Below the pieces are notes generated by a model, which searched no databases, had not been told where the DNA came from, and was given only the letters and a program-made list of their open reading frames with translations. A DNA stretch of 50,847 nt from Deltaproteobacteria bacterium (GTDB lineage Bacteria > Myxococcota_A > UBA9042 > DTJE01): NCBI GenBank assembly GCA_029547805.1, contig JAKPOP010000011.1, positions 1 to 50,847 of the forward strand. The letters run 5' to 3'. Positions 11,264 through 48,601 of this stretch are shown here, piece by piece. Position numbers and translations under genes: made by a program. How positions within the stretch are numbered: position 1 is the stretch's first letter; every line of letters begins with the position of its first letter.

Positions 11264-11863
11264 TCAAGCCTGCAGGGACAGGAATCCCCGGCGCAACAGC
11301 GCCAGCAGCTCCTCGACAGCCGTGTCCAGGTCCAGTTCCAGGTCCTCGTCGGCCCAGGCCCGGAAGGTCCCTTCGACCATGCCGACCAGGGCCCGGGCCA
11401 TCAGCGCCGCGTTTCCCCGGTGGACGATTCCGGCGGCCATGCCGTCCTCCAGGGACTCGGCCACCCATGCCCCCAGGAGCCGGTGGAAGGTCGCCACCCG
11501 TTCCCGGGCCGGCGAGTCGAGGCCTCCGGCCTCCCGGAGCAGCAGGCGGACCAGGTCCCGCTCCTCCAGCAGCAACGACACCAGTTGCCGGGCGTTCCGG
11601 CGGATCTGGTCCATCACCGCCGGGTCGTCCCGACCCTGTTCCGGGAGTCGGACCGGGGCCAGGCGATCCCGCAACCGCTCCAGGAACTCGTCCAGGAGTG
11701 CCTCGAAGATCTCCCGCTTGCCCGGGAAATAGAGATAGAAGGTCCCCCGGGCGACGCCCGTCGCCTCGATGATGTCGGTGACCGAGGCCTCGTGAAACCC
11801 CTTCGTGGCGAAGACCCTCATCGCGGCTTGGAGGAACTGGCGGCGGCGGCTCTCCGATCCCAT
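11264..11863 (-). CDS. TetR-family transcriptional regulator
   Basis: This is a 199-aa one-component repressor-type protein. The N-terminal helix-turn-helix is classical: ATKGFHEASVTDIIEATG followed by VARGTFYLYFPGKREIFEAL (residues about 18-55). The C-terminal two thirds is all-helical, as expected for the ligand-binding and dimerisation domain. ATG 11863 lies inside the end of the upstream activase gene (46-nt overlap), so the two are translated from one message and translation is probably coupled. A perfect palindrome in the activase promoter at 16436-16449 is the obvious candidate operator, giving autoregulation of the pair. The ligand is unknown; an acyl-CoA or acyl acid would fit the partner gene. 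Confidence 0.9.
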   Translation of the reverse strand: MGSESRRRQFLQAAMRVFATKGFHEASVTDIIEATGVARGTFYLYFPGKREIFEALLDEFLERLRDRLAPVRLPEQGRDDPAVMDQIRRNARQLVSLLLEERDLVRLLLREAGGLDSPARERVATFHRLLGAWVAESLEDGMAAGIVHRGNAALMARALVGMVEGTFRAWADEDLELDLDTAVEELLALLRRGFLSLQA

Positions 11864-14800
11864 GGCGTCCCCTGTTCCAGGTCCGGATCCCCGAGTTCGG
11901 GGGCAGTCTCCCGCCGGAATGGGGATGCCGTCAACGGGGCCGTGGTCGTCCGACCCGGCAGATCCCCTGCGGACGGCGGGTGCAGATCCGAGGGGGATCC
12001 GGAGGTTGGCACCCGGCGGGCCACCTCCCGGAGCCCCCGGGCCAGCACCCGCTGGCCCAGGTCCCGAACCACCTCTCCCAGTGTCGGGGCCGGGGCCCGG
12101 AGGGCCTTGCGTCTGCCCCGGGCCTCCCGGACCTGGAACACGAAGTCCTCCAGCACTCGGGGGTCGATGGGGTCGCCATGGACTGCAAGGGCCAGGGAGG
12201 GCATTCCCACCTCCCGCTCGATCCGGATCAGGTGGGACTCGGCGATCTTGTTGGGCATGCACTCGAGGGGGCCCACGGCGATGGCCCCATCCACCTCTCC
12301 CGACAGGTATTCGTGCAGCGGGGTGCCCACCGTCAGGATCGCCTCGCCCAGGAGGTCCTGCGTCACGGCACGCCCCCCGGTGCGGACCACCGCCGAGATC
12401 GGCGGCCGGGGATGCCAGTCCAGGGCCGCCGCCATCTCTCCCCAGAGGGCCCTGGAGATGGCGTCCTGGATCAGCGTCGAGACCCGGGTGGTCACCGGGT
12501 GGTCCCCCGGTGCGGGTCGCCCCTCGGCCAGGCGCTTCCAGGCCGTCCAGTCGGTGTAGTCGATCCACTCCCCGAAGGGCGCCAGTCGGGCCCTGGCCCC
12601 GGCCGCCTCGAGGCGTTCCACGAGCCAGTCATTGGCGAAGGGATCCAGCCGAACGTAGATCTCTCCCACCACCGCGATCACCGGTCGGTCGGTCGGTGTG
12701 CCCCGGGCCTCCCGGAAGCGTCGGGCCGCCTCCCGGATCACGGGTCGGATCCCGAAGAGGTCGCCGCCGACCTCCACCACGGCCCGGGCCAGGGAGAGGC
12801 GTCCCGGGCGTTCCAGGACCCGGTGCAGCGCCTCCGTGGCCTCCTTCCAGATCGCCCGGGCCTGGCCCGGGACCGCCTCGTCGGGCCGGACGTCGTGCAG
12901 GGCGGCGAGGAGGACGTCGGTGGCCACCATGCCGGCCCAGACCCGAAGCCGAAAGTCCGGTGAGAGCCCCGCGAAGTAGTCCTCGTCCGAGGGGGAGACC
13001 GTCCGGATCCGTTCCCGGTGACCGGCCCGTTCGTAGACGATCCGGTGCAGGATGTGGTAGGCCCCGAACCGACAGGGGCCATTGGCGGTGGGCATCAACA
13101 GCGCGAAGGTCTGTTCTGGGTCGGTCTCCTGGTCCAGGCGCTTCAGCACGCTGCCCAGCGTGATCGTCATGGGCACGCACTCCTTGCCGCTGGTCCACCG
13201 CCGGCCCCGATCAAGGGCGTCCCGGTCTGGGGTGGGCAGCACCTCGGCCCGGAAGCCCTCCGATCGGAGCGCTGCCGCGGTGGCCGCCGCCGCCGGTCCC
13301 ATGGGGTTGATCAGGAGGATGTCCCCCCGTCGTCGAACGTCCTCGAGTCCATGGCGATCCCGCAGGATGTGCAGCAACTGCTGCCTCGGGCGGCCCTCCC
13401 GATCCCGAGGAGTCCGCCGCTGGTCCGCCTCCACGCAGTGCAGGAAGGCCTCGATGCGCGTCCGGGTCCCAGCGTCCCCCGCATGCCCGTCCGTCTCGAT
13501 CACCGCGTAGGGCTTGTGCTCCATCTCGTACTGGAAGAAGTCCAGCGTGAAACTGTCGGGGCCACAGGAGTAGTTCGAGCAGAAGACGGCATGGAGGTCG
13601 TCCCGGTCCCGGACCCGGTCGGCAGCCCGGAGATTCCGCTGGCTGTGGGCCCAGTAGATGTCCGGAAGGACCGGCGTCTCCTCCCCGAGGGGCAGGCAGT
13701 CCACCGGAAGGGCCATCGCCCCCTGGGCCCGCAGCAGGTTCGGAACGTTCGAGTTCAGGACGTCGTTGTAGATCGTGTAGGTCCGTCCCAGGACCACCAC
13801 CGCCGGCACCGCCGCTTCCCGGGCCGCCTGCAGGGCTCGCTCTCCGATGCGGAGACACTCCCGCTGGAAGGCCTCCTGGGCCGCCAGGGCCGCCTCGAGG
13901 GCCGGTCCGACCCGACGATCGGGGATGTCCAGGCGCCGGGCCAGTTCCCGGGCGGACTGCCGGAGCGACGGGTCGTCGGCCATCCCGCGGCCGAAGTCCC
14001 AGGTCGGGTCAACCAGTCGGGGGGTCTCGGCGCCTCGAAAGAAGAGGTCCCGGAGGATCCCGGAGGCCCCCTGGACCATCGGGCAGGTCACCGAGTGGGA
14101 CTCCCCGGAGTGCCTGGGGAATTCCCGGAGGATCGGGACCAGCACGAAGTCCGGGCGGTCCCTGACCATCCGGGCGACCATGCCGTGGAACATCTGCAAG
14201 GGCGCACAGAAGGGCACGCTGGCCCGGGCAATCCCCTCCCGGAGGGTCTCGGCATTGCCCCGGCGGGCCACCCGCACCTGGAGGCCCAGGTTCGCCAGGA
14301 AGGTGGCGAAGAAGGGGGCGTGATCCTTGAGCAGGAACTCGTCGGCCATCGCCACGACGGGCGCTCCGGCCGGCGCCGGGAGGTGAGTCAGCAGGCGGTC
14401 CAGCAGGGCCTCCCGTTCCCGGAAGGGGTCCGGCAGCCCGTCCGGGAGCCGTCGCGTCCCCACGCCGCCGTCGTAGAGGGAACAGCCGCCACCCCAGGTG
14501 AAGCGCCGGTGCTTCCCGGCCACGGTGACCTCCAGGCGATCGACGCGGCAGAGGTTCCCTGGCTCTCCGCAGCCCTTCGTGGACCGGCACCGGAAGGAGG
14601 TCCGGGAGGTCACCTGGGCCTCCAGCAGCGCCGGGAGGTCCAACCCGGCCCCCTCCTGGCCCAGGCCCCCGGCCCGGGCCAGCAAGGCGATGCCGATGGC
14701 CCCCATCAGCCCGGGCCTCGGTGGTACCACCACCTCCGACCCGGTCCGGGAGGCCACCGCCGCTGCCAGGGCCGGTGACGCGAAGGGCATCCCCTGGCAG

Positions 14801-16395
14801 AAGACCCGGCGACCCACGCTCCGGGGGCCCTTCACCCGGTTCAGGTAGTTCTGGATCACCGAGTCATGGAGGCCCGCCACCACGGTCTCCAGTGGCTCTC
14901 CGGCCCCCAGGGCACGCTCGATCACCTCCGCCATGAAGACGCTGCAGTGCTGTCCCAGGTCCAGGGCCGCATCGGCCGCCAGGGCCTTCCGCGACAGGTC
15001 CTGGACCCCCGGACACCCCGGGAGGGCCTTTCCCTGCTCCTCGATGAAGGACCCTGTCCCGGCGCTGCATGCCTCGTTCATCGCCGCGTCCACCACCTGT
15101 CCGTCCTCCAGGCGGATGTACTTGGCGTCCTGGCCGCCGATCTCGAAGATCGTGTCCACCTCCGGGTCCAGGAAGGAGGCCGCCGCAGCATGGGCCGCGA
15201 TCTCGTTCTTCACGAAGACCCGATCGGGCCCGTAGCACACCGTGGCCAGGGACCCGGCGATCTCCCGTCCCGACCCCGTCACCGCCAGGCCCAGGACCCG
15301 GATGGAGGCCCCCTTCTCCCGCCAGAGGGCCTCCACGAGGGCCTTTGCCGCCCCGACGGGGTCCCCCAGGGTCTGCCGGTAGTGGGTCCACAGCACCTCG
15401 CCGTTCTCCGGGTCCACCGCGGCGGCCTTGGATCCGGTGCTGCCGATGTCCAGGCCCAGCAGGGCGTCCCGGGTGCCGTCCCAGGTGGGCAACGGCGTCT
15501 CCGGGATCCGGCGCACCTGGGCCAGGGCCAGTCGAGGAGCCGCACGGCGTGGGAACGACTCCGGCGGTTCCTCCAGGAACAGCGTCTCCAGGTCCAGGGG
15601 CGCCGCGCCCATGCGCCAGGCATGGAATGCCGCCCCGAAGGCCTCCAGGCAGGGGTCCCGCTCCTCGTCCGGTGGGACCACCTGGATGCCCAGGTCTGTT
15701 GCCAGCCGGGCGAAGTACCTCCGGATGCGGGGGCTTCGGGACACGCCCCCGACCAGCAGCAGGGCCCCGGGGGGATCGGCCCGTGGAAACAGGGACGCGA
15801 CGTTTTCGCAGACCGCATCCTCGAGCCCCGCCAGGATTCGGGCTCGATCCTCCCCCCGATTGGCCAGGTGGGTCATGTCCGTCTTCAGGATCACCGGGCA
15901 GCGACCCGAGAGGGGCGCCGGGTCCATGACGGGGTCTGCCAGGAGGTCCGCCTCGGCGGGGGTGAGGCCGAAGCGTCCCACCAGTTGCCGCAGGAAGTTG
16001 CCGGTCCCCTGGCTGCAGCGGGAGTTCTCCCGGATGCGACACCGGTCCTCGCCTCGCCAGTCGATCACGGCGAAGCCATGGGCCCCGATGGAGACCACCC
16101 CCACCGACTCCAGGCCCGGGTGGAGGACCTGCAGTCCCGCCGTCACCGCGGCCTTCTGGGGAATCCGCGACAGGGCCAGGCCCGTGGCCAGCCGCCCCGT
16201 TGCCGCCGCGCCCGTGTGGCCCTGGGCCACCCATGGCTCGAGGACCTCGCGCAATACCGGTTCCGGTCGGCCGCCATGCTCCCGGACCACGCCGGCACCG
16301 GGCCGTGCCCGGCCGTCGGCGTCCACCTCCAGCCGGGCCACCTTGAGGCGCTCGGCCCCGACATCGATTCCCAGGAAGACCAGACTCGACCCCAT
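11818..16395 (-). CDS. Tandem CoA-dehydratase activase (BcrAD/BadFG plus DUF2229-type) protein
   Basis: This 1525-aa protein combines two ASKHA-fold activase domains with a large DUF2229 / HgdD-like C-terminal part, the architecture annotated as acyl-CoA dehydratase activase-related protein. Related activases use ATP and a bridging [4Fe-4S] cluster to inject low-potential electrons into 2-hydroxyacyl-CoA dehydratases or benzoyl-CoA reductases. Domain 1 starts with LGIDVGAERLKVARLEVD and domain 2 (~315 on) with LLGLDIGSTGSKAAAVD. Both carry the two cluster cysteines: CSQGTGNF and GRCPVIL in domain 1, EACSAGTGSFIEEQ and GQHCSVFMAEVIERA in domain 2. The rest has several conserved Cys (CGEPGNLC, GGGCSLYDG, CSNYSCGPDSF). 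I chose ATG 16395 (GGGAG upstream) over 16443, because 16443 lies inside the promoter palindrome. Substrate unknown. Confidence 0.85.
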   Translation of the reverse strand: MGSSLVFLGIDVGAERLKVARLEVDADGRARPGAGVVREHGGRPEPVLREVLEPWVAQGHTGAAATGRLATGLALSRIPQKAAVTAGLQVLHPGLESVGVVSIGAHGFAVIDWRGEDRCRIRENSRCSQGTGNFLRQLVGRFGLTPAEADLLADPVMDPAPLSGRCPVILKTDMTHLANRGEDRARILAGLEDAVCENVASLFPRADPPGALLLVGGVSRSPRIRRYFARLATDLGIQVVPPDEERDPCLEAFGAAFHAWRMGAAPLDLETLFLEEPPESFPRRAAPRLALAQVRRIPETPLPTWDGTRDALLGLDIGSTGSKAAAVDPENGEVLWTHYRQTLGDPVGAAKALVEALWREKGASIRVLGLAVTGSGREIAGSLATVCYGPDRVFVKNEIAAHAAAASFLDPEVDTIFEIGGQDAKYIRLEDGQVVDAAMNEACSAGTGSFIEEQGKALPGCPGVQDLSRKALAADAALDLGQHCSVFMAEVIERALGAGEPLETVVAGLHDSVIQNYLNRVKGPRSVGRRVFCQGMPFASPALAAAVASRTGSEVVVPPRPGLMGAIGIALLARAGGLGQEGAGLDLPALLEAQVTSRTSFRCRSTKGCGEPGNLCRVDRLEVTVAGKHRRFTWGGGCSLYDGGVGTRRLPDGLPDPFREREALLDRLLTHLPAPAGAPVVAMADEFLLKDHAPFFATFLANLGLQVRVARRGNAETLREGIARASVPFCAPLQMFHGMVARMVRDRPDFVLVPILREFPRHSGESHSVTCPMVQGASGILRDLFFRGAETPRLVDPTWDFGRGMADDPSLRQSARELARRLDIPDRRVGPALEAALAAQEAFQRECLRIGERALQAAREAAVPAVVVLGRTYTIYNDVLNSNVPNLLRAQGAMALPVDCLPLGEETPVLPDIYWAHSQRNLRAADRVRDRDDLHAVFCSNYSCGPDSFTLDFFQYEMEHKPYAVIETDGHAGDAGTRTRIEAFLHCVEADQRRTPRDREGRPRQQLLHILRDRHGLEDVRRRGDILLINPMGPAAAATAAALRSEGFRAEVLPTPDRDALDRGRRWTSGKECVPMTITLGSVLKRLDQETDPEQTFALLMPTANGPCRFGAYHILHRIVYERAGHRERIRTVSPSDEDYFAGLSPDFRLRVWAGMVATDVLLAALHDVRPDEAVPGQARAIWKEATEALHRVLERPGRLSLARAVVEVGGDLFGIRPVIREAARRFREARGTPTDRPVIAVVGEIYVRLDPFANDWLVERLEAAGARARLAPFGEWIDYTDWTAWKRLAEGRPAPGDHPVTTRVSTLIQDAISRALWGEMAAALDWHPRPPISAVVRTGGRAVTQDLLGEAILTVGTPLHEYLSGEVDGAIAVGPLECMPNKIAESHLIRIEREVGMPSLALAVHGDPIDPRVLEDFVFQVREARGRRKALRAPAPTLGEVVRDLGQRVLARGLREVARRVPTSGSPSDLHPPSAGDLPGRTTTAPLTASPFRRETAPELGDPDLEQGTPWDRRAAAASSSKPR

Positions 16396-24805: not shown

Positions 24806-25267
24806 ATGCGTGTCCTCCTGGCGTCGGTCCTCGTGTGCCTGGTCGCGGCCCCGGTCCTTGCCCAGGAAGGCAAGAACACCTCCGGCTCGGAGGGATCGGG
24901 CGTCATCACGATGCTGTCCCCGAAGCAGGCCGAGCAGATCCTGAGGGGCATGGGCTTCGAGGTGGAGCAGCCCAAGGAAGGCGTCTTCGTCTTCCCCCTG
25001 GCGGGCTACAAGGCCCTGCTCTTCCTGTCGAAGAACCGGACCTCCCTCCAGCTCTATTCGGGGTTCAAGAAGAAGGCCACGGTGGCCAAGGTCAACGAGT
25101 GGAACAAGTCCAAGCGGTTCAGCCGGGCCTACATCGATGACGAGGGAGATCCCGTCATCGAGTCGGATCTGGACCTCGAGGGTGGCACCACGGTCGGGGC
25201 GATCCAGGAGTTCATCCGGACCTTCCGGCTGTCGGTGGACGCCTACGTGTCCTTCCTGTCCGACTAG
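24806..25267 (+). CDS. Exported YbjN-domain protein
   Basis: This is a 153-aa protein with a clear Sec signal (MRVLLASVLVCLVAAPVLAQ). The mature ~130-aa domain of the YbjN type, a fold related to type III secretion chaperones, contains ILRGMGFEVEQPKEGVFVFP, then ALLFLSKNRTSLQLYSGF, VNEWNKSKRFSRAYIDDEG and a final helix. YbjN proteins are annotated as sensory transduction regulators; exported versions are common but uncharacterised. Start is fixed by the strong promoter at 24749-24777 and by AGGA just upstream. It converges on the nitrogenase-like operon with 13 bp between stops. Confidence 0.78.
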   Translation: MRVLLASVLVCLVAAPVLAQEGKNTSGSEGSGVITMLSPKQAEQILRGMGFEVEQPKEGVFVFPLAGYKALLFLSKNRTSLQLYSGFKKKATVAKVNEWNKSKRFSRAYIDDEGDPVIESDLDLEGGTTVGAIQEFIRTFRLSVDAYVSFLSD

Positions 25268-25280
25268 CCCTCTGCCCGAA

Positions 25281-28205
25281 TCAGGGGTTGCCGATCGGGT
25301 CCAGGAGACCCGCCTGGAGGCGATCCTCCAGCACCTCCGCCTGCACCAGGGCGTCGGCCGCGTGGACCGGGTGCCCCCGATCCCGAAGCAGTGATGCCGC
25401 CTCCCGGAGCGCCCGTGCGCCCTCCCGCATGGCCTCGGGGTCCGTGAGGATGCTCTGGTCGTTCCGGTTGCGCTGGGGAAGCAGGAAGCGCACGGGGACC
25501 CCCTCCTCCAGTCCCATCCGGGCAAAGGCAACGACCTCGGCGAGGTTCGCCTTCAGCACGACGAAACTGTAGGTGAGCCCACCGGTGAAGCGTCCCTCCC
25601 GGCGGGCCGCCATCAGGGCGTCCAGGTTGCGCCGGATGGCCTCGAAGGGAAGGCCCCGGTTGACCTTGCGGTACGTCTCCGGTGTGGCCGCGTTCAGGCT
25701 GACCGTGATCGCCCGGAAGGGGAGCCGGGGCAGGGAGGCGATCCACCGGGGGGTCAGCAGGGAGCCGTTGGTCACGATGGCCACCGATGGGGGGCCGGGC
25801 TTCCGCGCCAGGTCCTCCAGGAAGGCCCGGAAGACCGGGGAGGACAGGGGCTCGCCGCCGTTGACGTCCATCTCGCACCCCCCCGACAGCCATGGGTCCA
25901 GTCCCTCCCAGAACTCCCGGGGCCGCTGGTCGTCGAGGGTCCCCGTTTCCCCGCACTCGCACATGAGGCAGTCGTAGTTGCAGAACGAGGTGACGGGCAC
26001 GCAGAAGGAGAGGGGGGTGTGGGACAGGTCCACACGTCGGTCCAGCAGCGCCTCGACGCAGCGGATCTGGTTTTCCACCGCCTCGGGAGGGCCTCCCCGG
26101 AGGAGCATCCGATCGGGGGTCTCCTGGCCTCCCCGGAGGACCGGGCAGGTGGTCCGGCAACCCTCCGGGTGTCCCGGCGCGAGCATTGCGACCCGGTAGC
26201 GCCGCAGGAGGTCCGACTGCCAGAGGTCCTCGGGAGTCGCGCTCGGGGGCACGAAGTGGCGTCCGTCCATGTAGTCGGCACAGCAGGGGCCGTAGGTGCC
26301 CCCGTCGTGGAGCTCCAGGCGGGTCCAGGGCCGGGTGCAGGGAATCGGGGGAAGGGCCTCGGCCGGGACCAGGCGGTGCAGCGGGAAGCGAACCTCGGGA
26401 CGGTTCGCCAGGAGGACCCGGGCGATGTCCTGCCAGCGGGGCTCGCGAGGGATCGCGGGGAAGGGACGCAGTTCCCGGGCGCCGAAGGTCTCGAGGTAGG
26501 AGGCCGAGAGGCCCGGACAGCGGTCCCGCAGACCACATTCGTGGCAGCCGGGACCGAAGGTGGCCCCTTCGGGGGTCCGGGGTGGGGTCGCGCCCTGGAC
26601 GAGGGCCTCCAACACCGACTCCGGGAACAGGCAGAGGGGGCGAAAGCGGCTCCGGATGCGCACCGAGTCCCCCAGCCGGGCCTTCCACTCCGGCAAGAGG
26701 GCCTCCTCCAGTTCCTGGAAGGAGACCGGGCGGTCCGGGGGCAGAACCTGGGAGGGGTCCTGCAGATCCAGCACCAGCAGGGTGCCCGGGTCCGAGGGGT
26801 GATCGGGGAACCGGGTCCGGAGTTCCTTGAGGGTTTTCTGGGTGATCGGGATCACCTGCTCCCGGCGGCCGGGCGGGGGCCCGAAAGGACGCAGGCCCTT
26901 CAGGCCGAATCGCCGGGCATAGGGGGCCGGGACGCCCAGGCAGTGGGGATCGGCGGGGCATTCCCGGCAGGTCCGGGCCTTGACCCAGGGACGCTCCAGG
27001 TCCTCGTAGCCGGTCTCCTCGGGATGAATCAGCGGCCGCTGCTTCATGCGCTGCCGCTCGCCGGGAGACACGAAGCAGGGGGGGATCGATGCGTGGGTGC
27101 TGCTGACCAGTGGCGAGAAGGGGACCCCGATCTCCCGGGCCAGGTAGGCGGCCTCCTCCAGTCGCGGCAGGAGGTCCTCGTAGGGCATCAACCACTCGGG
27201 GCTCCGTGGGCGGTGGGGAGGGCACATCAGGATCGAGAGGTGCACCTCCGGGAGGGGAAGCCCGTCGAGCCATCGCGGGAGGGTCCGGATCACCTCCGGC
27301 AGGTGGGCCGCATTGGGAGACCCCACGACGACGTTGACAATCACCCGGTGCCCTGCCCGGACCAGGGCCTGGAGCCCCTTCCTCGCCTTCGGCAGTTGCC
27401 CCCGGGTGGCCGTCATCTGATCGTAGAGGGCCGGATCGACCGCGTGGAGGGAGAAGAACCAGGTCAACCGTCGATGGGTCGGCAGGGCCGCGACGCGGGC
27501 CGGATCCGCCAGGGAGACCCCGTTGGTCTGGACCTGGACCCCCTCGATGCCCGGCTGGGCGAGGGCCAGTGCCAGCAATTCCTGGAAGTCCGGTCGCAGG
27601 GTCGGTTCGCCGCCGGTCAGCGTCAGCAAGCAGCCTGGGAACTCCCTGGCGGCCTCGACCAGGGATCGCCGGAGGTCCTCCAGGGAGGGATCCCGAATGA
27701 GGGGGGCGCTGCAGAAGGGGCACGCCTGGTTGCAGCGATCGGTGAGCCGGATCAGCACCTGACGGCGCACCGTGCCGTCCTCCGAGACCCCCTCGTCGAC
27801 CGAGACGAAGGGCAGGTGTCGGATCGACGCATGCCCCGAGGGAGGAAGGGCCGACTCCGAGAAGTCGGGAAGTCGATCCTCGAGATGGGCCAGCACCGCG
27901 ATGGTCCGGTCCACGAGGGCCTGCTGCCGGGCATCGTTCTCCCGGGAGAGGCGGTAGGAGAAGTCGTGGGTCGCCGTGGATCGGTAGGCCGGGACGTTCG
28001 AGGCCCGCCGGGACATCCGGACAGTGGCCGACCCTTCCGGGGAATCGAGAACCACCACCAGGGAGTCCCCTTCGACCCGGACGTCCTCCACCGGGACCTC
28101 GACCTTCCGAAGCACGGTCAGCAGGCGCCGAGTCCAGGGGATCCGGGCATCCCCGGGGGCCTTGGAACTCCCGGCGGCTGCCGGCTGGGCCTTCCGGTCC
28201 TCCAT
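25281..28205 (-). CDS. Double radical SAM protein of the nitrogenase-like operon
   Basis: This 974-aa protein carries two radical SAM cores. Core 1 has the CxxxCxxC cluster motif in TDRCNQACPFC (C158, C162, C165). Core 2 has FCNYDCLMC (C742, C746, C749). Between them are two copies of a motif C-x2-C-x4/5-C-x-G-x4-Y-x3-FG-x3-LRPF (near residues 411 and 552), probable auxiliary cluster sites. A SPASM-like segment with PCTRPW (near 620) and YGPCCADYMDG (near 637) precedes core 2. An N-terminal beta module (about 49-100) resembles residues 53-102 of the 617-aa nitrogenase-like subunit. The family is not NifB, which has one core. ATG 28205 has GGAGGG 7 nt upstream; ATG 28226, 1 nt after the upstream stop, is the alternative. 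Role may be cofactor maturation or substrate radical chemistry. Confidence 0.82.
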   Translation of the reverse strand: MEDRKAQPAAAGSSKAPGDARIPWTRRLLTVLRKVEVPVEDVRVEGDSLVVVLDSPEGSATVRMSRRASNVPAYRSTATHDFSYRLSRENDARQQALVDRTIAVLAHLEDRLPDFSESALPPSGHASIRHLPFVSVDEGVSEDGTVRRQVLIRLTDRCNQACPFCSAPLIRDPSLEDLRRSLVEAAREFPGCLLTLTGGEPTLRPDFQELLALALAQPGIEGVQVQTNGVSLADPARVAALPTHRRLTWFFSLHAVDPALYDQMTATRGQLPKARKGLQALVRAGHRVIVNVVVGSPNAAHLPEVIRTLPRWLDGLPLPEVHLSILMCPPHRPRSPEWLMPYEDLLPRLEEAAYLAREIGVPFSPLVSSTHASIPPCFVSPGERQRMKQRPLIHPEETGYEDLERPWVKARTCRECPADPHCLGVPAPYARRFGLKGLRPFGPPPGRREQVIPITQKTLKELRTRFPDHPSDPGTLLVLDLQDPSQVLPPDRPVSFQELEEALLPEWKARLGDSVRIRSRFRPLCLFPESVLEALVQGATPPRTPEGATFGPGCHECGLRDRCPGLSASYLETFGARELRPFPAIPREPRWQDIARVLLANRPEVRFPLHRLVPAEALPPIPCTRPWTRLELHDGGTYGPCCADYMDGRHFVPPSATPEDLWQSDLLRRYRVAMLAPGHPEGCRTTCPVLRGGQETPDRMLLRGGPPEAVENQIRCVEALLDRRVDLSHTPLSFCVPVTSFCNYDCLMCECGETGTLDDQRPREFWEGLDPWLSGGCEMDVNGGEPLSSPVFRAFLEDLARKPGPPSVAIVTNGSLLTPRWIASLPRLPFRAITVSLNAATPETYRKVNRGLPFEAIRRNLDALMAARREGRFTGGLTYSFVVLKANLAEVVAFARMGLEEGVPVRFLLPQRNRNDQSILTDPEAMREGARALREAASLLRDRGHPVHAADALVQAEVLEDRLQAGLLDPIGNP

Positions 28206-28227
28206 GGGCGGTCCCTCCGGGACCATG

Positions 28228-29577
28228 CTACTTCCCCCAGAGGCGTTCCGTCCATTGGGCCACCTCGGCCATCCGAAGGGCATTGGCCATCGCGTCGATG
28301 AAGAAGAGGACTCCGCCGAAGCCCAGGAAGGGACGGTCTGCGAGGCAGTGGGTGTGGAAGGAGGGGAAGCCGAACTCCAGGGAGGCCAGACCGTGGCCGG
28401 TCACCAGGCCGACGGCGCCGCTGTGGGCCACCAGCAGGTGGATGCCCCGGGAGGCGACCCGGTCCCGGAGGAAGGCGATCATCTCCTTGAACCGGGGCCA
28501 TTCCAGTCGCTCCGTGGCGGGTCCCAGGGCTTCGGGCAGGCCGGCCAGGTGGTGTCGGGGGTGGGTGATCACCGCGAAGGAGAGTTCTGCCCCAAGCAGG
28601 TCCAGGGTCTCCCGGAGGCCACGGACCAGGACGGGATCCCCGACATAGCCCACTCGCCGATGCTGGAAGACGAAGGGGATCACGAACTCCAGGGACGGGA
28701 TGATCCGGGAGAGTTCGGCCTGGATCAGGGTCTGGGCCTCCTGTTCCCGGCCCAGTTCCTTTCCGAGGACCTGGACGAGGCGCTCGGTGGCCGGCAGGCC
28801 GAAGGGCAGGTCGCACTCGATGACCCGGGCCCCGGTCCTCCGGGCGATCCAGCGGGCGGCCTTGCGGCCATAGGGAAAGGCCAGCAGGGTTCCGGCCTCC
28901 CGGACCCGGGTCAGGTCCTGGAACCGCTGGCCTTCGAGCCAGATCGAGACGGGGTCCAGGCCCAAGGCGGTCAGCAGGCGCCGGATCTCCCGGAGATTGG
29001 CTCGATGGTCGCCCTCGTGGCGGTCCATCAGGTAACCGATCACCGCCACCCGCTCCGGCACCGGCGTGCTCCCCGAGAGGTCCAGTTGTCGGGCCAGGGA
29101 GACGAGGGTCTCCTGGTAGCCGTCCAGCCAGTCCCCGCTCAGGGACCTCCCGGGGACGTGGATCACCGTTCGGCCCGTGTCCGCCTGGACGTCCCGGCAG
29201 ATTCGCTCGTAGTCGGCGCCGGTGATCGCGGCCATGGGCATCGAGGTCAACAGGACACCCCCGGTCGTGGGGTGGGAGGCGATGCGGGCCAGGGTGCCCC
29301 GGAGGGCATCCTCCCGGGATCGGGTCATCTGGACCGGATGGAGGGCCGTGTTGGCGATGCGGTGGTGCCCGGACACGCTGGTCAACGTCGAGAGCCAGTC
29401 GTGGTTGCCCTGGACGTACTGGGTCTTCATGTGGACGCAGTCCGGTCCCTCGACCAGGGTCACCGTGTCCTTCAGGGCATTGGTGGCCAGATACACCCCC
29501 ACCAGGAAGGTGTAGGTGACCCGCTGGCTCAGGTCTTCCGGGTGGCCGCCCGGTGGGCTCCGGTCAACCTCGACCAT
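28228..29577 (-). CDS. Nitrogenase component 1-like subunit, short form
   Basis: This is a 449-aa protein with the three-domain Rossmann-like pattern of the NifD/K, BchN/B superfamily. The N-terminal third aligns by pattern with NifK: GVYLATNALKDTV, GPDC (C47, the position of the second P-cluster Cys), HPVQMTRSREDALRG, then LLTSMPMAAITGADYERI, where the family has TTCxxExxGDD. The third cluster Cys is thus replaced (S112/M113), and the first is not visible at its expected place. It would form a complex with the 617-aa subunit and be reduced by the NifH-like protein. ATG 29577 has AGGAGGT 4 nt upstream and overlaps the upstream gene by 14 bp. It lacks the features of a nitrogen-fixing alpha subunit. 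Confidence 0.8.
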   Translation of the reverse strand: MVEVDRSPPGGHPEDLSQRVTYTFLVGVYLATNALKDTVTLVEGPDCVHMKTQYVQGNHDWLSTLTSVSGHHRIANTALHPVQMTRSREDALRGTLARIASHPTTGGVLLTSMPMAAITGADYERICRDVQADTGRTVIHVPGRSLSGDWLDGYQETLVSLARQLDLSGSTPVPERVAVIGYLMDRHEGDHRANLREIRRLLTALGLDPVSIWLEGQRFQDLTRVREAGTLLAFPYGRKAARWIARRTGARVIECDLPFGLPATERLVQVLGKELGREQEAQTLIQAELSRIIPSLEFVIPFVFQHRRVGYVGDPVLVRGLRETLDLLGAELSFAVITHPRHHLAGLPEALGPATERLEWPRFKEMIAFLRDRVASRGIHLLVAHSGAVGLVTGHGLASLEFGFPSFHTHCLADRPFLGFGGVLFFIDAMANALRMAEVAQWTERLWGK

Positions 29578-31417
29578 CGAGACCTCCTGGACCCAGCGGG
29601 ACGCCTTCGGGGCTCCGGGCGAGGTAGTCCCGGTATCGGCGGTAGAACGGGGTCCGGCAGATGTTCAGCAGCCGCCGCACGCTCCGAATGGCCCCCGGGA
29701 GGCCCATCTCGAAGACCTGGAGGGAGAAGCGGTTCTTCCCCGCCTCCGAGAGGCGCCAGTCGAAGTAGTGGTAGGAGAGGGCCGCCTGGGCCTCGGACTC
29801 CCGCAGTCGCTGCCGCAGCGTCTCGAAGTCGTGAAACCCCTTCACCACGTGGCGATCCGGGTGTTCCATCCGCCGGACGATGGCCTGGGCGCTCTCCCGG
29901 GCCTGCTTGCGCTGGCGCACCTTGATCAGGATGTCCAGGCCGAAGCCCGCCTCCTCCAGGAAGGCCAGCAGCGGGACGCCCCAGGTGGTCGAGGGATCGG
30001 TCAGGTGTTCGGTCTCCTCGGCCCGGACCACCAGGGCGATCCGGTACTGGCGGGCCTCCGACACCAGGCGCTCCCACTCGGGAAGGAGGGGCCTCGCGAT
30101 GCCTTCATGGGCGGCATCGGCCTGCTCCGGTGGCAGGTCCAGGGCCTGGCAGACCTCCCGCAGCCAGCGGTGACTGCCCCGGAAGCCGTAGGGGGCATCG
30201 GGAGTCACACAGCGGATCCGGGTGTTTCCGGTCAGGTGGGTGTAGTGGTTCCGCCAGACTCGGTTGGGATAGAAGACGCTGACCGGGGCCAGGGGCAGTC
30301 GCTCGATCCGGGCAATGGCGAAGTCGGGAATCAGGTGGGTGTTCACGGTGATCCCGGCTCCCTGGAGCAGGTCCCGGACCCCCTGGGTCGTCGCGTCCTC
30401 GGCATAGCCCACCAGGTTCACGACGGGGCCCGTGGGAGGGGGGACCCGGGCCTCGACCGCCAGGCGGCGGGTCTCCAGGAGGTCCCGGAAGACGTTGAAC
30501 ATGCTGATGGGGGTCACGGTGAGGTAGACCAGGGGGGTCGGGCTCCGGGCGGCATAGCGCCGGACCACCGACTCCACGTCCTCGCCGGTGACCATCGGCA
30601 CGCAGGTGTTGCTGAAAAAGGTGATCTTGTCCGGCAGGGGATGGGCCACCACGTAGTCGAGCACCCGGCGCACCTTGTCGGGATTGCCCATGATGACGTC
30701 CGACTCGCTGAGGTCCGTGGTGACCATGCCCTCGACGCTCGGGTCCACCCGGCTGGCCTGGCCCGGGAGGTCCAGGGACCGCTGGCGGTTCTCCCAGGGA
30801 TACTCGACCGCCGAGAGGAGCGGCGCAACGCCATGCGGCGAGACGGTCATGCACTCGTTGTCGCAGTGCTGGACGAACCGGAAGGACCCCGAGAGGTCGA
30901 TGCTGTCCAGCTGGCTCCGGGCGATCTCCCCCACTGCGAAGAACTCCGCAAAGGCGTCGTCCCCGGCCCAGGTGGTCAGCAGGTTCGTGACCTGGTCGTC
31001 CGATCCGGTGGAGATGACGGGCAGGGGTCGGGTTCCCGGGTCGCTGCGAGCGATGGTCAGGAGGTCCTCCTCGGAGGACTCCCCCATCCGGGCCGGGGCG
31101 TGGGACCGCACCCGCTGGTCGATCTCCTCGGGAATCCGGGTCTCGCCCCGGTAGGAGATGGCCAGCCGGGGCGTCCTGACCCAGGCCTTCTCCCGGCGCT
31201 GGCCGTCCTCCAGCACCAGGACCATCCGGACCGACCCGGCCGGTCCCAGCAGCACCTCGAAATGGTCGTCGTAGTAGACCACCCACCGGACGCGCCAGTC
31301 CTCCGGCGCCGTCTCCAGTCCGAGGCGCCAGGCCACCAGGTCCCGGGTCGAGTCCCCTACCCGGATCCGGCTGCCCAGTTCCTCCGGGGCCTGCGTGGCC
31401 TCCAGGTTGCCGTGCAT
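29564..31417 (-). CDS. Nitrogenase component 1-like subunit, long form with N-terminal extension
   Basis: This is a 617-aa protein. Residues ~180 onward follow the NifD/K-type pattern: FVQHCDNECMTVSPHG (C185, C189), VTTDLSESDVIMGNPDKV (matching the family ExxxxFGG region), and FFSNTCVPMVTGEDV (C272, matching the TTCMAEVIGDD motif). It therefore keeps cluster cysteines at two family positions. The first ~175 residues are an extra module; residues 53-102 (EVLLGPAGSVRMVLV through ISYRGETRIP) resemble the N-terminus of the operon's radical SAM protein. The C-terminal domain ends with a basic helical region. ATG 31417 is 6 bp after the NifH-like stop. It probably forms the catalytic heterodimer or tetramer with the 449-aa subunit. 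Substrate is unknown. Confidence 0.8.
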   Translation of the reverse strand: MHGNLEATQAPEELGSRIRVGDSTRDLVAWRLGLETAPEDWRVRWVVYYDDHFEVLLGPAGSVRMVLVLEDGQRREKAWVRTPRLAISYRGETRIPEEIDQRVRSHAPARMGESSEEDLLTIARSDPGTRPLPVISTGSDDQVTNLLTTWAGDDAFAEFFAVGEIARSQLDSIDLSGSFRFVQHCDNECMTVSPHGVAPLLSAVEYPWENRQRSLDLPGQASRVDPSVEGMVTTDLSESDVIMGNPDKVRRVLDYVVAHPLPDKITFFSNTCVPMVTGEDVESVVRRYAARSPTPLVYLTVTPISMFNVFRDLLETRRLAVEARVPPPTGPVVNLVGYAEDATTQGVRDLLQGAGITVNTHLIPDFAIARIERLPLAPVSVFYPNRVWRNHYTHLTGNTRIRCVTPDAPYGFRGSHRWLREVCQALDLPPEQADAAHEGIARPLLPEWERLVSEARQYRIALVVRAEETEHLTDPSTTWGVPLLAFLEEAGFGLDILIKVRQRKQARESAQAIVRRMEHPDRHVVKGFHDFETLRQRLRESEAQAALSYHYFDWRLSEAGKNRFSLQVFEMGLPGAIRSVRRLLNICRTPFYRRYRDYLARSPEGVPLGPGGLDGRG

Positions 31418-31422
31418 CGGGG

Positions 31423-32244
31423 CTATCTCCCGTCGCTTCGAAGGAACTCGAAGAACTCCTCCTCGCTCATGGGGCTCGGCAGGGCGACCTGGTCCGGGTC
31501 GATCTCCAGCAGGGTCTGCCCCAGGCGCGCGATCGACCGGGAGGCCGGGGCATCGGGGGCGTATTCCAGGATGGTCTGCTGCTCCGTTTCCGCCTCCTGG
31601 ATCCGGGGGTCCCGCTCGATCACCTCCAGGATGCGGGTGCCCAGGCGTCGGGCGAAGCGATCCAGCATCTCCGTGCTGGCGGTGTTGGACCGCCGGTTCA
31701 CGACGAGGCCCGCCAGGCATACCCCGTTGTTGCGATAGATGTGGATGGCCCGGGCGATGTTGTTGGCCGCGAAGATGGCCATGGGCTCCTCCGAGAGGAC
31801 GATCAGGACCTTCCGGGCGAACCCGTCCCGGAGGGGAGCCGCAAAACCGCCGCAGACCACGTCCCCCAGCACGTCGAAGACCGCAATGTCGAAACGGCCG
31901 GACTGGAGCAGTTGCATCTCGTCGAGGGTCTCGATCATCCGGGCGACTCCCCGGCCGGCGCACCCGACCCCTGGCTCCGGCCCCCCGGCCTCGCAGCACG
32001 CGATCCCGTGGCGTCCCGTGGTCAGGATCTCGTCGGTTCCCGCCGCCTCGGGGTCGTCCCGGAGGACCTCCAGCACCGTCCGGATCCGGGTCCGCTGATC
32101 CAGCAGCCGCAGGGCCGAGTCGTGCTTCGGGTCGCAGCCCACGTGGAGCACCCGCTGTCCGTTCATGGCATACCAGGCGCTGAGGCTCGTGGCGACGACC
32201 GACTTCCCGATGCCACCCTTCCCGTAGACCGCGATGGTCTCCAT
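31423..32244 (-). CDS. NifH/BchL-like ATP-dependent iron-sulfur reductase
   Basis: This is a 273-aa homodimeric P-loop reductase of the nitrogenase iron-protein family. It donates low-potential electrons to a component 1-like partner with ATP hydrolysis. The P-loop is GKGGIGKS (8-15), the nucleotide-binding CDPKHDSA begins at 37, and the two [4Fe-4S] ligands are C95 (GVGCAGRGV) and C131 (DVLGDVVCGGF), at nearly the same positions as NifH C97 and C132. CAGRG also includes the Arg that is ADP-ribosylated in true NifH. ATG 32244 has AAGGAG 4 nt upstream. It is the first gene of the operon, directly behind a good promoter. Assignment to a nitrogenase-like rather than nitrogen-fixing group rests on its partners. 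Confidence 0.9.
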   Translation of the reverse strand: METIAVYGKGGIGKSVVATSLSAWYAMNGQRVLHVGCDPKHDSALRLLDQRTRIRTVLEVLRDDPEAAGTDEILTTGRHGIACCEAGGPEPGVGCAGRGVARMIETLDEMQLLQSGRFDIAVFDVLGDVVCGGFAAPLRDGFARKVLIVLSEEPMAIFAANNIARAIHIYRNNGVCLAGLVVNRRSNTASTEMLDRFARRLGTRILEVIERDPRIQEAETEQQTILEYAPDAPASRSIARLGQTLLEIDPDQVALPSPMSEEEFFEFLRSDGR

Positions 32245-32281: not shown

Positions 32282-32310
32282 AAGATAACGGGTTCCCGCG
32301 CACGGGTCAA
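32282..32310 (-). promoter_or_regulatory. Sigma-70-like promoter of the nitrogenase-like operon
   Basis: On the minus strand, TTGACC (32310-32305), a 17-bp spacer and TATCTT (32287-32282). Transcription would start near 32275, giving a ~30-nt leader before ATG 32244. There is no sigma-54 motif here, unlike typical nif operons. Confidence 0.62.
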
Positions 32311-33428: not shown

Positions 33429-34562
33429 GTGGAGGGCTGTGACGTCCTGGTGGTCGGGGCCGGTCTCTCGGGCGCCGTGGCCGCTCGGGCGATTGCGGAA
33501 CGGGGTCTCCGGGTGATGGTCGTCGAGCGGAGACCCTTCGTGGGCGGCCTGTGCCACGATGCTCCGGGTCCCGAGGGGGTTCCCTTGCCCGATTTTGGCC
33601 CCCACTATTTCCGGGCCCATCGGCCGGAACCGGTGGCGTTCCTGGGGCGGTTCACCGAGTGGCGACCGGTGGTCTTTCGGGTGCGGGTGCAGCGGGAAGG
33701 GGTCCTCTGGCCCTTTCCGATCCAGCTGGCCACCTTCGAGCAGTGGATCGGGAGGCCCTCGACCTCGGAGGAGATGGAGCGGACGCTGGCCATCTGGCGA
33801 GTTCCCTGCGAGGACCCTCAGGACTCGGAGTCCTTCGTGCTGTCCCGCGTGGGATGGCCCTTCTTTCGGTTCTTCTACGAGGGATACACTCGCAAGCAGT
33901 GGGGCATGGAGGCCCGGGACCTGCTGCCTTCGGCTTGCGGACGGGTCCCCATCCGGACCACCCGGGAGGACCGCTATCTCGATGCCCCCTTCCAGGCGAT
34001 GCCGGTGGAGGGCTACACGGCCATGGTGGAACGGATGCTTCGCCATCCGGGGATCGAGGTGCGCCGGGACTCGGAGGGCCAGGAGGCACGGCGGGAGGTC
34101 CCTCATCGTCATCTGGTCTGGACCGGCACCCCCGAGGAGTTCTTCGGGGAGCGGCCGGACCGATTGCCCCGGAGGTCCCTGCGCTGGGAACGGGAGGTCT
34201 TCCAGGGGCGGCGGGTGCTGGAGGCGCCGCAGATCAACTTTCCCGGTCCGGAGCCCTGGACCCGGTGGATCGAGACCTCCCAGCATCATGGGTCCCCGGG
34301 GCCAGTCACGACGGTGATCCGGGAGTATCCACAGGCCTTCCTGCCCGGGAGGGAGCCCCTCTACGCCATTCCCTCCCGACCGGCGGAGCAGGCCTTCGAG
34401 GCCTGGCGTCGCCGCATGGAGGCGGCGCCCGGGGTCACCTTCCTGGGACGGCAGGCCCTCTACCGCAATCTGGACATGGACCAGGCGGTGGAAATGGCCC
34501 TGGAGGCCGTTCCCGCCATCGAGGTGGCCGTCTTGACCGAGGCCGGGAGGCTTGCCCCATGA
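33429..34562 (+). CDS. glf: UDP-galactopyranose mutase
   Basis: This is a 377-aa FAD-dependent cytoplasmic enzyme interconverting UDP-galactopyranose and UDP-galactofuranose for surface glycans. The FAD dinucleotide motif is LVVGAGLSGAVAARAIAERG at the N-terminus, followed by the ERR motif and GGLCHD. The family signature GPHYFRAH and the active-site YTRKQWG are present, with a conserved Arg in the following region. Length fits the family (about 365-390). The GTG at 33429 has GGAAGGCAGGAG 5 nt upstream and gives the canonical N-terminus; the frame is open upstream but overlaps the lipoprotein gene. It overlaps the next gene by ATGA. Confidence 0.9.
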   Translation: MEGCDVLVVGAGLSGAVAARAIAERGLRVMVVERRPFVGGLCHDAPGPEGVPLPDFGPHYFRAHRPEPVAFLGRFTEWRPVVFRVRVQREGVLWPFPIQLATFEQWIGRPSTSEEMERTLAIWRVPCEDPQDSESFVLSRVGWPFFRFFYEGYTRKQWGMEARDLLPSACGRVPIRTTREDRYLDAPFQAMPVEGYTAMVERMLRHPGIEVRRDSEGQEARREVPHRHLVWTGTPEEFFGERPDRLPRRSLRWEREVFQGRRVLEAPQINFPGPEPWTRWIETSQHHGSPGPVTTVIREYPQAFLPGREPLYAIPSRPAEQAFEAWRRRMEAAPGVTFLGRQALYRNLDMDQAVEMALEAVPAIEVAVLTEAGRLAP

Positions 34563-45903: not shown

Positions 45904-47256
45904 TCAGCGCCGGGACTCCCGTTGCCAGCGCTCCTGCATCCGGTACAGGGTCCGACGGTTGATGCCCAGCACGCGGGCAGCCTTCTCCTTGTTGCCGTGG
46001 ACCTGCTCCATCACGTGCTGCACGTAGGCCTTTTCCAGTTCACGCAGTTCCGGCAGGTGATCGCCGGACCATCCCGGGAACAGGGTGCGATCCGAGGAGG
46101 CGGTGGGCAGGTCCCCGACGTCGATCACCTCGCCGGGGGTCAGCACCACCAGCCGCTCGATGATGTTCTCCAGTTCCCGGACGTTGCCCTCCCAGGGGCG
46201 CTGCTGGAGCGCGTCCAGGGCCCGGGGAGTCAGGCGCTTGACCGGCGCCCCGGACCGGGCGGCGAAGGCGTGGAGGAAGTGATCGACCAGCAGGGGGATG
46301 TCCTCCACCCGCTCGGCCAGGGATGGCAGGCGAATCGGGATCACGCTGAGCCGGTAGTAGAGGTCCTCCCGAAAGGTCCCCTCGCGGATCGCGGTCCGGA
46401 GGTCCCGGTGGGTGGCGGTGATGACCCGGCAGTCCACCGTGATGGGCTTCGACGAGCCCACCGGGCGGACCTCCCGGTCCTGGAGCACCCGGAGCAACTT
46501 GGCCTGCAGGGCCAGCCCCATGTCCCCGATCTCGTCCAGGAACAGGGTGCCCCCGGAGGCCTCGACGAAGAGGCCCCGGTGGGAGGTGTAGGCCCCCGTG
46601 AAGGCCCCCCGGGCGTGGCCGAAGAGCTCGCTCTCCAGCAGCCCTTCGGGGATGGCGCTGCAGTTGACCGGGACGAAGGGGCCGCTGGATCGCTGTCCGC
46701 TGAAGTGGATGGCCCGGGCGACCAGTTCCTTGCCGGTCCCCGAGTCGCCGAGGATGAGGACGTTCGCGGTGCTGTCGGCGACCCGCTCCACCAGGCGGAA
46801 GACCTCCTTCATCGCCTTGGATCGGCCGATCAGTTGCTGCAGGCCGTATCGGTCCCCGACCTCCCGCCGAAGGCGCCGGTTTTCCGCCACCAGGCGGCGC
46901 TGCTCGACGGCCTTCGCAATGAGGGCCTCCATCTCGCGCATCTTGAAGGGCTTGGTGACGAAATAGAAGGCGCCGGCCTTCATCGCCTCGATCGCCCGGT
47001 CAATGGATCCGAAGGCCGTCACGATGATCACCGGGACGTCGGGCCGTTCCCGCCGGACCGTGGCCAGCACGTCCATGCCGTCCACGTCCCGCATGCGCAG
47101 GTCCGTGACCACCACGTCGAAGTCCCCGGACCGGACCTTGTCCAGGGCCTCGATTCCGCCCCGGGCGCACTCTGCCTGGTACCCGGCACGACCCAGGTAG
47201 TCCGTCAGCAGGTCGCCCATCTCGGGCTCGTCATCCACCACCAGCACCGAGGCCAT
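45904..47256 (-). CDS. NtrC-family sigma-54-dependent response regulator
   Basis: This is a 450-aa response regulator with three domains. The receiver (1-120) has the acidic pair in VVDDE, phosphoacceptor D52 (VVVTDLRM) and the K of TKPFK. The AAA+ domain (~145-370) has [14 protein letters not shown] at about 217-222 (the sigma-54 contact loop) and [11 protein letters not shown]. The C-terminal Fis-type helix-turn-helix is [20 protein letters not shown]. Sigma-54 promoters are therefore its targets, and one is in this window at 36080-36095. It is divergent from the kinase at 47339 (82 bp between starts). I chose ATG 47256; the GTG at 47265 with GGAGGT 3 nt upstream is an alternative. Downstream lies the macroglobulin gene, 135 bp away on the same strand. 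Confidence 0.92.
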
Positions 47257-47302
47257 CGGTTCCACGGGACCTCCCGTCATGCGCGACAAATTACCACATC
47301 CT

Positions 47303-47317
47303 GTGTCGCCATGACAC
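47303..47317. promoter_or_regulatory. Inverted repeat between the two-component genes
   Basis: GTGTC-gccat-GACAC is a 5-bp-arm inverted repeat in the 82-bp divergent region of the response regulator and histidine kinase. It could be an autoregulatory operator; short arms make this tentative. Confidence 0.3.
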
Positions 47318-47338
47318 GCCTCCCCGGGGAGGGGTCCC

Positions 47339-48601
47339 GTGGTAGAGTGGAAGGCACGGACGAGGGCCCTGGAGGCGGGATTGGGACCGAGCGAGACGGA
47401 CCTGCTGGAGGCGCTGGTGGAGGTCGAGACGCCGGAGGCGGCGGCGGGCACGATGGTCGCCTGGCTGCGGCAGGTGGGGTGTCCCCGGGCGGCGGTGCTG
47501 CTGTGCCAGCGGAGCGACGGCCCCGCCCTGCTGCCGGAGGGCCCCTGTCGCGCCTCGGTGCTGGCATCCGGGGGCGAATGGTCCGAAGGGGTGCTGGACC
47601 GGTTGGCGGAGTCCTTTCCCTGCCTGGCCGACGGTCCAGGGCCCGGGGAGGCGCCGGTGACCGGGGATCGCGTCCTGCTCGGGGATCCGGGACACCACCT
47701 CGGATGGCTGGTGGCCGATCCACCGCCCGGAGATCCGGAAGGTCGCCACCAGGAGCGCCTGATCACGGGCGCCCGCCGACTTGCCAGTGCCCTGCGTCGT
47801 GCCCTGGCCGTTCGGCGGCTCCAGCGGTCCATCGAGGATGCCCACCAGGTCCAGGGCCGACTGATCCAGGCGGAGAAGCACGCCGCCATCGGAAGGCTCG
47901 CCGCGGGCCTGGCCCACGAGATCGGCACGCCGCTCAACATCATCTCGGGACGGGCGGAACTCATGCTGGAGGAGGTGGGCAGCGACCATCCCGGGGTTCG
48001 CCAGGCCGTGAAGACCATCACGGGGCAGATCGAACGCATCAGCGGCCTGGTCCGGCAACTGCTGGACTTCGCGCGAGAGCACGCGCCGGTCCAGGAGGTC
48101 GTGGACCTGGAGGCGGTGGTCCGGGACGTGGCGGACCTGATGCAGCCGACCCTGCTGAAGCATGGCATCGCCCTGGTCCTGGCGTGGGAGGCCGGTCTTC
48201 CTCGGGTCCGGGCCAACGGGCACCAGTTGCAGCAGGTGCTTCTGAACCTGTTGCTGAACAGCCAGGATGCCATCCAGGGGGACCCCGGCCGGGACCGGAA
48301 GGGTCGAGGGGAAATCCGCATCACCGGGGAGCGGGAGCAACGGGGCTGGGTCCGGGTCCGCGTCTGGGACAACGGCCAGGGAATCCTGCCGTCCCACCTC
48401 CACAAGGTCTGCGACCCCTTCTTCACCACGAAGCCCGTCGGGACCGGCACGGGACTCGGCCTGGCGGTGGTCTATGGCATCGTGACCGAGCACGGGGGCA
48501 CCCTGGACATCCAGAGTCGTTGGGGGGAGGAGACGACGGTCTCCTTCACCCTCCGGGCGGTGCCGGACGACGAGGTCAGAGGCTTGGGGTTCCCACGGTG
48601 A
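47339..48601 (+). CDS. Soluble sensor histidine kinase
   Basis: This is a 420-aa histidine kinase with no transmembrane helix, so it senses a cytoplasmic signal. The first ~150 residues look like a GAF-type sensor domain; no cofactor-binding residues are obvious. The DHp domain carries the phosphoacceptor H193 in LAHEIGTPLNII, and the ATPase domain has NLLLNSQDAI (N-box), DNGQG (G1), FFTTK and GTGTGLGLAVV (G2). It should phosphorylate the NtrC-type regulator encoded divergently. GTG 47339 is the only start in this frame before the sensor region, with GGAGGGG 3-4 nt upstream. Its 3' end overlaps the mlaD-like gene by 26 bp. Confidence 0.85.
   Translation: MVEWKARTRALEAGLGPSETDLLEALVEVETPEAAAGTMVAWLRQVGCPRAAVLLCQRSDGPALLPEGPCRASVLASGGEWSEGVLDRLAESFPCLADGPGPGEAPVTGDRVLLGDPGHHLGWLVADPPPGDPEGRHQERLITGARRLASALRRALAVRRLQRSIEDAHQVQGRLIQAEKHAAIGRLAAGLAHEIGTPLNIISGRAELMLEEVGSDHPGVRQAVKTITGQIERISGLVRQLLDFAREHAPVQEVVDLEAVVRDVADLMQPTLLKHGIALVLAWEAGLPRVRANGHQLQQVLLNLLLNSQDAIQGDPGRDRKGRGEIRITGEREQRGWVRVRVWDNGQGILPSHLHKVCDPFFTTKPVGTGTGLGLAVVYGIVTEHGGTLDIQSRWGEETTVSFTLRAVPDDEVRGLGFPR

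Follow-up and report, generated by a model that had tools for sequence, protein, structure and literature searches.

A nitrogenase-like reductase operon, probably of a new Myxococcota-centred family, with a two-core radical SAM partner

What might a nitrogenase-like enzyme reduce when its genes share an operon with a protein that carries two radical S-adenosylmethionine (SAM) cores? The question is raised by contig JAKPOP010000011.1 of a Deltaproteobacteria bacterium (assembly GCA_029547805.1; 4.08 Mb, 97% complete), analysed here over its entire length of 50,847 nucleotides (contig C13 in our numbering, hereafter the window). An initial annotation, made from the sequence alone, had described four minus-strand genes at 25281-32244, and we find them there in the order H (NifH-like iron protein), D and K (NifD- and NifK-like subunits) and a gene for a double radical SAM protein (Table 1). 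They are tightly packed: H and D are 5 bp apart, D and K overlap by 14 bp, and K is separated by 1 bp from the radical SAM gene. All four genes have a third-position GC of 0.88-0.91. H and D are under purifying selection, with ratios of nonsynonymous to synonymous substitution (dN/dS) against a same-genus genome of 0.17 and 0.20, respectively.

Profile searches with Pfam bear out the proposed identities of the three nitrogenase-like proteins. D scores 83 bits and K 153 bits on PF00148 (cut-off 28.6) and H scores 272 bits on PF00142 (cut-off 25); H also has a Walker A motif (GKGGIGKS) and both [4Fe-4S] cysteines, C95 and C131, which are invariant in our alignment. None of the three reaches any NCBIfam equivalog cut-off: H gives 278 bits against a NifH cut-off of 394 and 271 against a CfbC cut-off of 402, D and K give 19-35 bits on the Bch and Cfb models (cut-offs 268-529), and D gives 38 bits on the NifE model (cut-off 505). 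In a profile search of PDB, D matched NifE and MarD best (both ~73 bits), and K matched chains of the V-, Fe- and Mo-nitrogenases; an AlphaFold (AF2) model of D (pLDDT 82) had NifEN, NifD and MarD as top Foldseek matches. A quick maximum-likelihood tree of D, which has long branches, includes MarD and NifE only in part and lacks CfbD, IsrD and NfaD, was used solely to place D outside the reference clades included. In it the window's group (17 rows, SH-aLRT 99) falls within a 39-row Myxococcota group (95) and is separate from NifD/E, MarD, BchN and BchY. The earlier suggestion of an undescribed reductase agrees with D and K scoring below the cut-off of every curated clade and with the position of D in this tree. 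Judged from these comparisons, in which CfbD was compared by profile score and Isr and Nfa by published cysteine pattern only, the nitrogenase-like reductase of this operon probably belongs to a new family centred on the Myxococcota.

Ligand residues indicate which metal centres the D2K2 component may hold. Cysteines were mapped onto Azotobacter vinelandii NifD and NifK, which are identical to the PDB chains. D keeps equivalents of NifD Cys88 (C189) and Cys154 (C272) and lacks one of Cys62, and K keeps only the equivalent of NifK Cys95 (C47), giving three of the six P-cluster cysteines (D 62/88/154, K 70/95/153). At the positions that bind the iron-molybdenum cofactor (FeMo-co), D has Pro for Cys275 and Gln for His442; among the aligned Myxococcota D proteins none has Cys at the former position, and most of the window's group have Gln or Arg at the latter. 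The cofactor cysteine of MarD (an L-cluster ligand) likewise aligns with Pro in D. The absence of nifB, which had been noted for the operon, extends to the whole genome, where the best NifB score is 26 bits against a cut-off of 344; the genome therefore has no NifB above cut-off, and D lacks the Cys275 and His442 that a Nif, Vnf or Anf nitrogenase would have. The lost FeMo-co ligands, the three P-cluster-type cysteines and the missing NifB make one [4Fe-4S] cluster the likely centre. By analogy with DPOR and Isr, D2K2 most likely holds a single such cluster at the old P-cluster site, bound by two cysteines of D, one of K and one non-cysteine ligand, for which E164, located close to where Cys62 would be, is a candidate; it probably has no FeMo-co or L-cluster, judging from the residue loss and the NifB result. 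The missing cofactor ligands and NifB also argue against the radical SAM protein building a FeMo-type cofactor; cofactor building and product processing were the two roles considered in the initial annotation.

The radical SAM protein itself begins with a domain that we call X, followed by core 1 with a C-X2-C-X5-C auxiliary motif, a twitch/SPASM-like CTRPW...CC region and core 2. Its two cores had been predicted, and each indeed has a CX3CX2C motif (CNQACPFC and CNYDCLMC). All NCBIfam matches are below cut-off: core 1 is HxsC/MoaA-like (best match HxsC, TIGR03977, 97 bits against a cut-off of 268), and core 2 is N_Twi_rSAM/viperin-like and resembles putative metalloenzyme-maturase radical SAMs (TIGR04311, 72 bits).

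Does this partner accompany the reductase elsewhere? Scanning one genome per species, with gene calls at relatives' loci made by per-locus training, yielded 23 loci with a K homologue (39-69% identity), from metagenome-assembled genomes (MAGs) titled Myxococcota, Myxococcales, Deltaproteobacteria, Bradymonadales, Oligoflexales or Anaeromyxobacter. Most have the order H-D-K-radical SAM or radical SAM-H-D-K. The fused double gene occurs in the window and at five of these loci; eight others have only the N-half beside the operon and three only the C-half, while five have other radical SAM genes, often with B12-binding domains, and such B12-radical-SAM genes are recurrent beside the homologous loci. 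At one further locus (L085) the contig ends after K, and at another (L092) the closest radical SAM-group gene is ~5 kb off. A radical SAM gene is thus found nearby at nearly all homologous loci, as the initial annotation had led one to expect, and the double core corresponds to a fusion of two genes that relatives carry separately. Directly downstream of H-D-K at a deep-branching locus (L104, 7371-10295) lies the gene for another double radical SAM fusion, a 975-aa protein that also includes a B12-binding domain. CobW/HypB/UreG-like GTPase genes and an ABC-type ATPase gene lie near the operon at two loci (L086, 1241-2646; L097, 14317-17788).

A key link between reductase and partner is domain X, ~115 aa long and common to the N-termini of D and of the radical SAM protein. 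An initial hhalign comparison of the D extension with the radical SAM N-terminus gave 78% (E=1.8e-5), and deeper profiles gave 95.4% (E=1.8e-8). In the AF2 model of X (pLDDT 94.4), a strand and a helix precede four strands and two helices. Other proteins carry X too: stand-alone C-half radical SAM proteins at their N-terminus, D subunits belonging to other nitrogenase-like types and, at its C-terminus, a radical-SAM-like open reading frame (ORF) elsewhere in the same genome (contig C29, E=8e-6). A profile built solely from D subunits detects X in one U32-like and two B12-radical-SAM ORFs (E 7e-9 to 8e-7), at the C-terminus both in the B12-radical-SAM ORFs (genomes G224 and G196) and in the U32-like ORF (G050); at loci L202, L203 and L205 the domain arrangement was deduced from ORFs, both visually and with profiles, and the U32 assignment comes from sequence motifs, with no NCBIfam match. 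The presence of X in both D and its radical SAM partner favours action of the two on the same substrate. Whatever X binds leads to that substrate, and whether it is shared is directly testable. A U32-peptidase-like protein (by eye) with a C-terminal X (profile E=4.5e-10) is encoded at L216 8088-9401. X had no meaningful Pfam match among 38 members, and hhalign found no relation to the YbjN-domain protein encoded next to the operon (24806-25267, +), whose gene is convergent with the radical SAM gene.

Table 1. Features of the operon and its upstream region, in window coordinates
Feature	Position	Strand	Basis
Candidate sigma-70-type promoter upstream of H	32282..32310	-	Consensus match only
H, NifH-like ATP-dependent iron protein, 273 aa	31423..32244	-	PF00142, E=8e-81
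D, NifD-like subunit with N-terminal extension carrying domain X, 617 aa	29564..31417	-	PF00148, E=3e-23, residues ~226-547
Domain X in D, ~residues 12-128	31034..31384	-	hhalign against the radical SAM X domain
K, NifK-like subunit, 449 aa	28228..29577	-	PF00148, E=1e-44
Double radical SAM protein, 981 aa (974 aa from a start at 28205)	25281..28226	-	PF04055, E=3e-31, two stretches
Domain X at the N-terminus of the radical SAM protein	27825..28184	-	Own-genome X-profile search, E=2.0e-21; hhalign

Our tentative answer, to which we give a little less than an even chance, is that the operon encodes a nitrogenase-like reductase with a [4Fe-4S]-only D2K2, and that its radical SAM partners act on the same substrate or carrier, recognised through X. 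Going by homology, H would pass ATP-gated low-potential electrons to D2K2, and the emptied cofactor cavity may, like that of DPOR, take up an organic substrate. Whether fused or separate, the two radical SAM activities would act in the same pathway on the same molecule, and X on D and on the radical SAM partners could recognise or tether the common substrate or carrier, much as recognition elements (RRE domains) do in enzymes for ribosomally synthesized and post-translationally modified peptides (RiPPs). A peptide or protein-borne substrate is the leading guess. In a more specific form, X would be a substrate- or leader-recognition module, and the reductase would modify a ribosomal peptide or protein-tethered substrate together with X-bearing radical SAM, B12-radical-SAM and U32-like enzymes; we regard this form as rather unlikely. 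Should X be such a module, ATP-driven nitrogenase chemistry would have been recruited into a modification assembly line.

The thought of peptides is prompted partly by the Hxs (His-Xaa-Ser) system, HxsBCD. HxsC is the best NCBIfam match of core 1, and in G196 (a complete genome, one contig of 10.3 Mb) two X-bearing radical SAM genes adjoin HxsB (533 bits, cut-off 370), HxsC4 (631, cut-off 500) and HxsD (52, cut-off 50), with an HxsD-like gene at 65 bits (cut-off 41). HxsB is above its cut-off in 11 of the 13 genomes of the window's family. However, core 1 stays below the HxsC cut-off, and the window's own genome has its HxsB/HxsC/HxsD-like genes at a separate locus (L223 8861-12100, contig C9), around which neither a nitrogenase-like gene nor X was found; the link of X and the Hxs context to peptide modification is therefore suggestive only. 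In G196:C1, the stretch at about 418-427 kb (L214 3237-11748) holds Hxs genes, X-bearing radical SAM genes and dioxygenase-like ORFs, and this genome is possibly a cultured route to domain X.

The isolation of the own-genome Hxs locus is one of several points that weigh against the proposal of a common, X-recognised substrate. No substrate gene is linked to the operon, and no small ORF near it that could be a RiPP precursor is conserved between loci (the sole conserved pair is the same membrane-like ORF in two genomes). The role of X as a recognition module is drawn by analogy, as no structural homologue was found: its fold had no match among PDB structures at E<=0.001. The window's group comes entirely from MAGs or other assemblies. 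Finally, the CobW-like GTPase and ABC-ATPase genes at two loci could point to cofactor maturation instead.

How far do known systems account for the operon? The initial annotation held, as far as it knew, that known nitrogenase relatives do not come with a radical SAM protein of this architecture. The claim is not supported: IsrBHDK, MarBHDK and NfaBHDK are published sets of H-D-K with a radical SAM gene (PMC11423573), among which Isr and Nfa had not been listed. The pairing of nitrogenase-like genes with a radical SAM gene is thus already known, and the window has it too. In an enzyme of the Isr/Mar type, H-D-K would break a bond (e.g. C-S) of a small compound that is to be assimilated, and D-K would be matured or activated by the radical SAM protein, a role that the B proteins may have in Isr, Mar and Nfa. 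Group IV contains such sets, and isethionate cannot be used without IsrB (PMC11423573). Isr of Rhodobacter capsulatus, a Group IV member, resembles the window's system in having H, D and K homologues beside a radical SAM gene and a D without FeMo-co ligands; the methylthio-alkane reductase MarHDK (PMC12552129; PDB 9FMG and 9D9U) shares the H-D-K architecture, and MarD is among the best structure and profile matches of D. The cluster ligands, however, differ from both. The published Isr pattern is one cysteine in D and three in K (PMC11423573), whereas the window has two in D and one in K; Mar holds P-clusters and [Fe8S9C], whereas the window's D lacks the cofactor cysteine and the Cys62 equivalent and carries X. 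IsrB (the NflB protein) is described in the portion of PMC11423573 consulted simply as a radical SAM enzyme, with neither a domain like X nor a second core mentioned for Isr there, whereas the window's protein has two cores and X. Isr also stands among sulfonate genes, whereas no sulfur or sulfonate metabolism genes were seen beside the homologous loci in their partly annotated listings. We judge an Isr/Mar-type role unlikely, though by no means far-fetched.

Distinctly less probable is that D-K forms a NifEN-like platform for a metal cofactor that would be assembled or inserted by the radical SAM protein together with the CobW-like and ABC-ATPase proteins. NifE and NifN are the best profile and fold matches of D, core 2 is similar to the putative maturases mentioned above, and CobW-like GTPase genes occur near the operon; yet these are found at two loci only, the cysteine that binds the cofactor in NifD and the L-cluster in NifE is missing from D, which falls far short of the NifE cut-off, and a NifB is lacking from the genome.

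A tetrapyrrole reductase of the DPOR/COR/CfbCD kind, serving an unrecognised tetrapyrrole pathway, seems to us very improbable. Tetrapyrrole pathways often include radical SAM and B12-radical-SAM enzymes, and the component logic of DPOR (BchLNB) and COR (BchXYZ) is shared, including the [4Fe-4S]-only component and the emptied cofactor cavity that we propose for the window. The scores of D and K on the Bch and Cfb models speak against it, as do the positions of Myxococcota BchN and BchY, which branch elsewhere in the D tree; DPOR, moreover, uses three cysteines of BchN and an Asp of BchB (PMC11423573), a different set from that of the window. No tetrapyrrole genes were seen beside the homologous loci in the same partly annotated listings. 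That the operon is a decaying or non-functional duplicate, which the several nitrogenase-like copies in this genome might suggest, deserves next to no credence given its intact frames, the dN/dS of H and D and its conservation across 20-odd MAGs.

The proposal of a reductase and radical SAM partners meeting on one X-recognised substrate bears on a superfamily in which few nitrogenase-like reductases have a known reaction. The literature searched, which was only part of the published work, held no description of the window's group, its cysteine set, the fused two-core partner or domain X, and a large Myxococcota group of nitrogenase-like reductases has apparently gone undescribed. It combines the probable lack of a large cofactor, a reduced set of cluster ligands and a domain shared by the reductase with its radical SAM partners; if the substrate were a peptide or a carrier-bound group, nitrogenase-type chemistry would extend to a new kind of target.

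Nitrogenase-like genes are not confined to the operon. The eight PF00148 matches of this genome form four D/K pairs, three of them beyond the window's. One pair (L014 5795-9967) comes with an H of its own and lies next to the gene for a 721-aa protein that has a CX5CX2C-type cysteine motif and no Pfam match; the D of this pair has an upstream cysteine by eye, although the alignment did not place it. A second (L014 10312-14523) also has its own H. The third (L013 9299-11973) has no adjacent H, and has all three D-type cysteines in D and one cysteine in K. Across the phylum, PF00148 matches were found in 57 of the 379 sampled Myxococcota genomes (46 above the family's cut-off) and in 12 of the 13 genomes of the window's own family. 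Genes reading as DPOR (BchN, BchB) were seen at L135-L138 in G223, G224 and G164, with COR subunits too in G223 and G224; these three are Myxococcota with bacteriochlorophyll genes.

As to expression, promoter-like sites of the sigma-70 type number two in the operon region against 0.2 expected. The reported absence of a sigma-54 nif promoter stands, the nine weak matches in the window comparing with 11 expected by chance. A sigma-54-activating response regulator gene with a divergent histidine kinase gene lies at 45904-48601, and no above-chance sigma-54 site is found near the operon. Divergent from the operon is a UDP-galactopyranose mutase-like gene (GLF; 33429-34562, +). At 11818-16395 (-) the window encodes a 1525-aa BadF/BcrAD ATPase and DUF2229 protein of the kind that activates 2-hydroxyacyl-CoA dehydratases, which adds a second type of ATP-driven low-potential electron donor to the contig.

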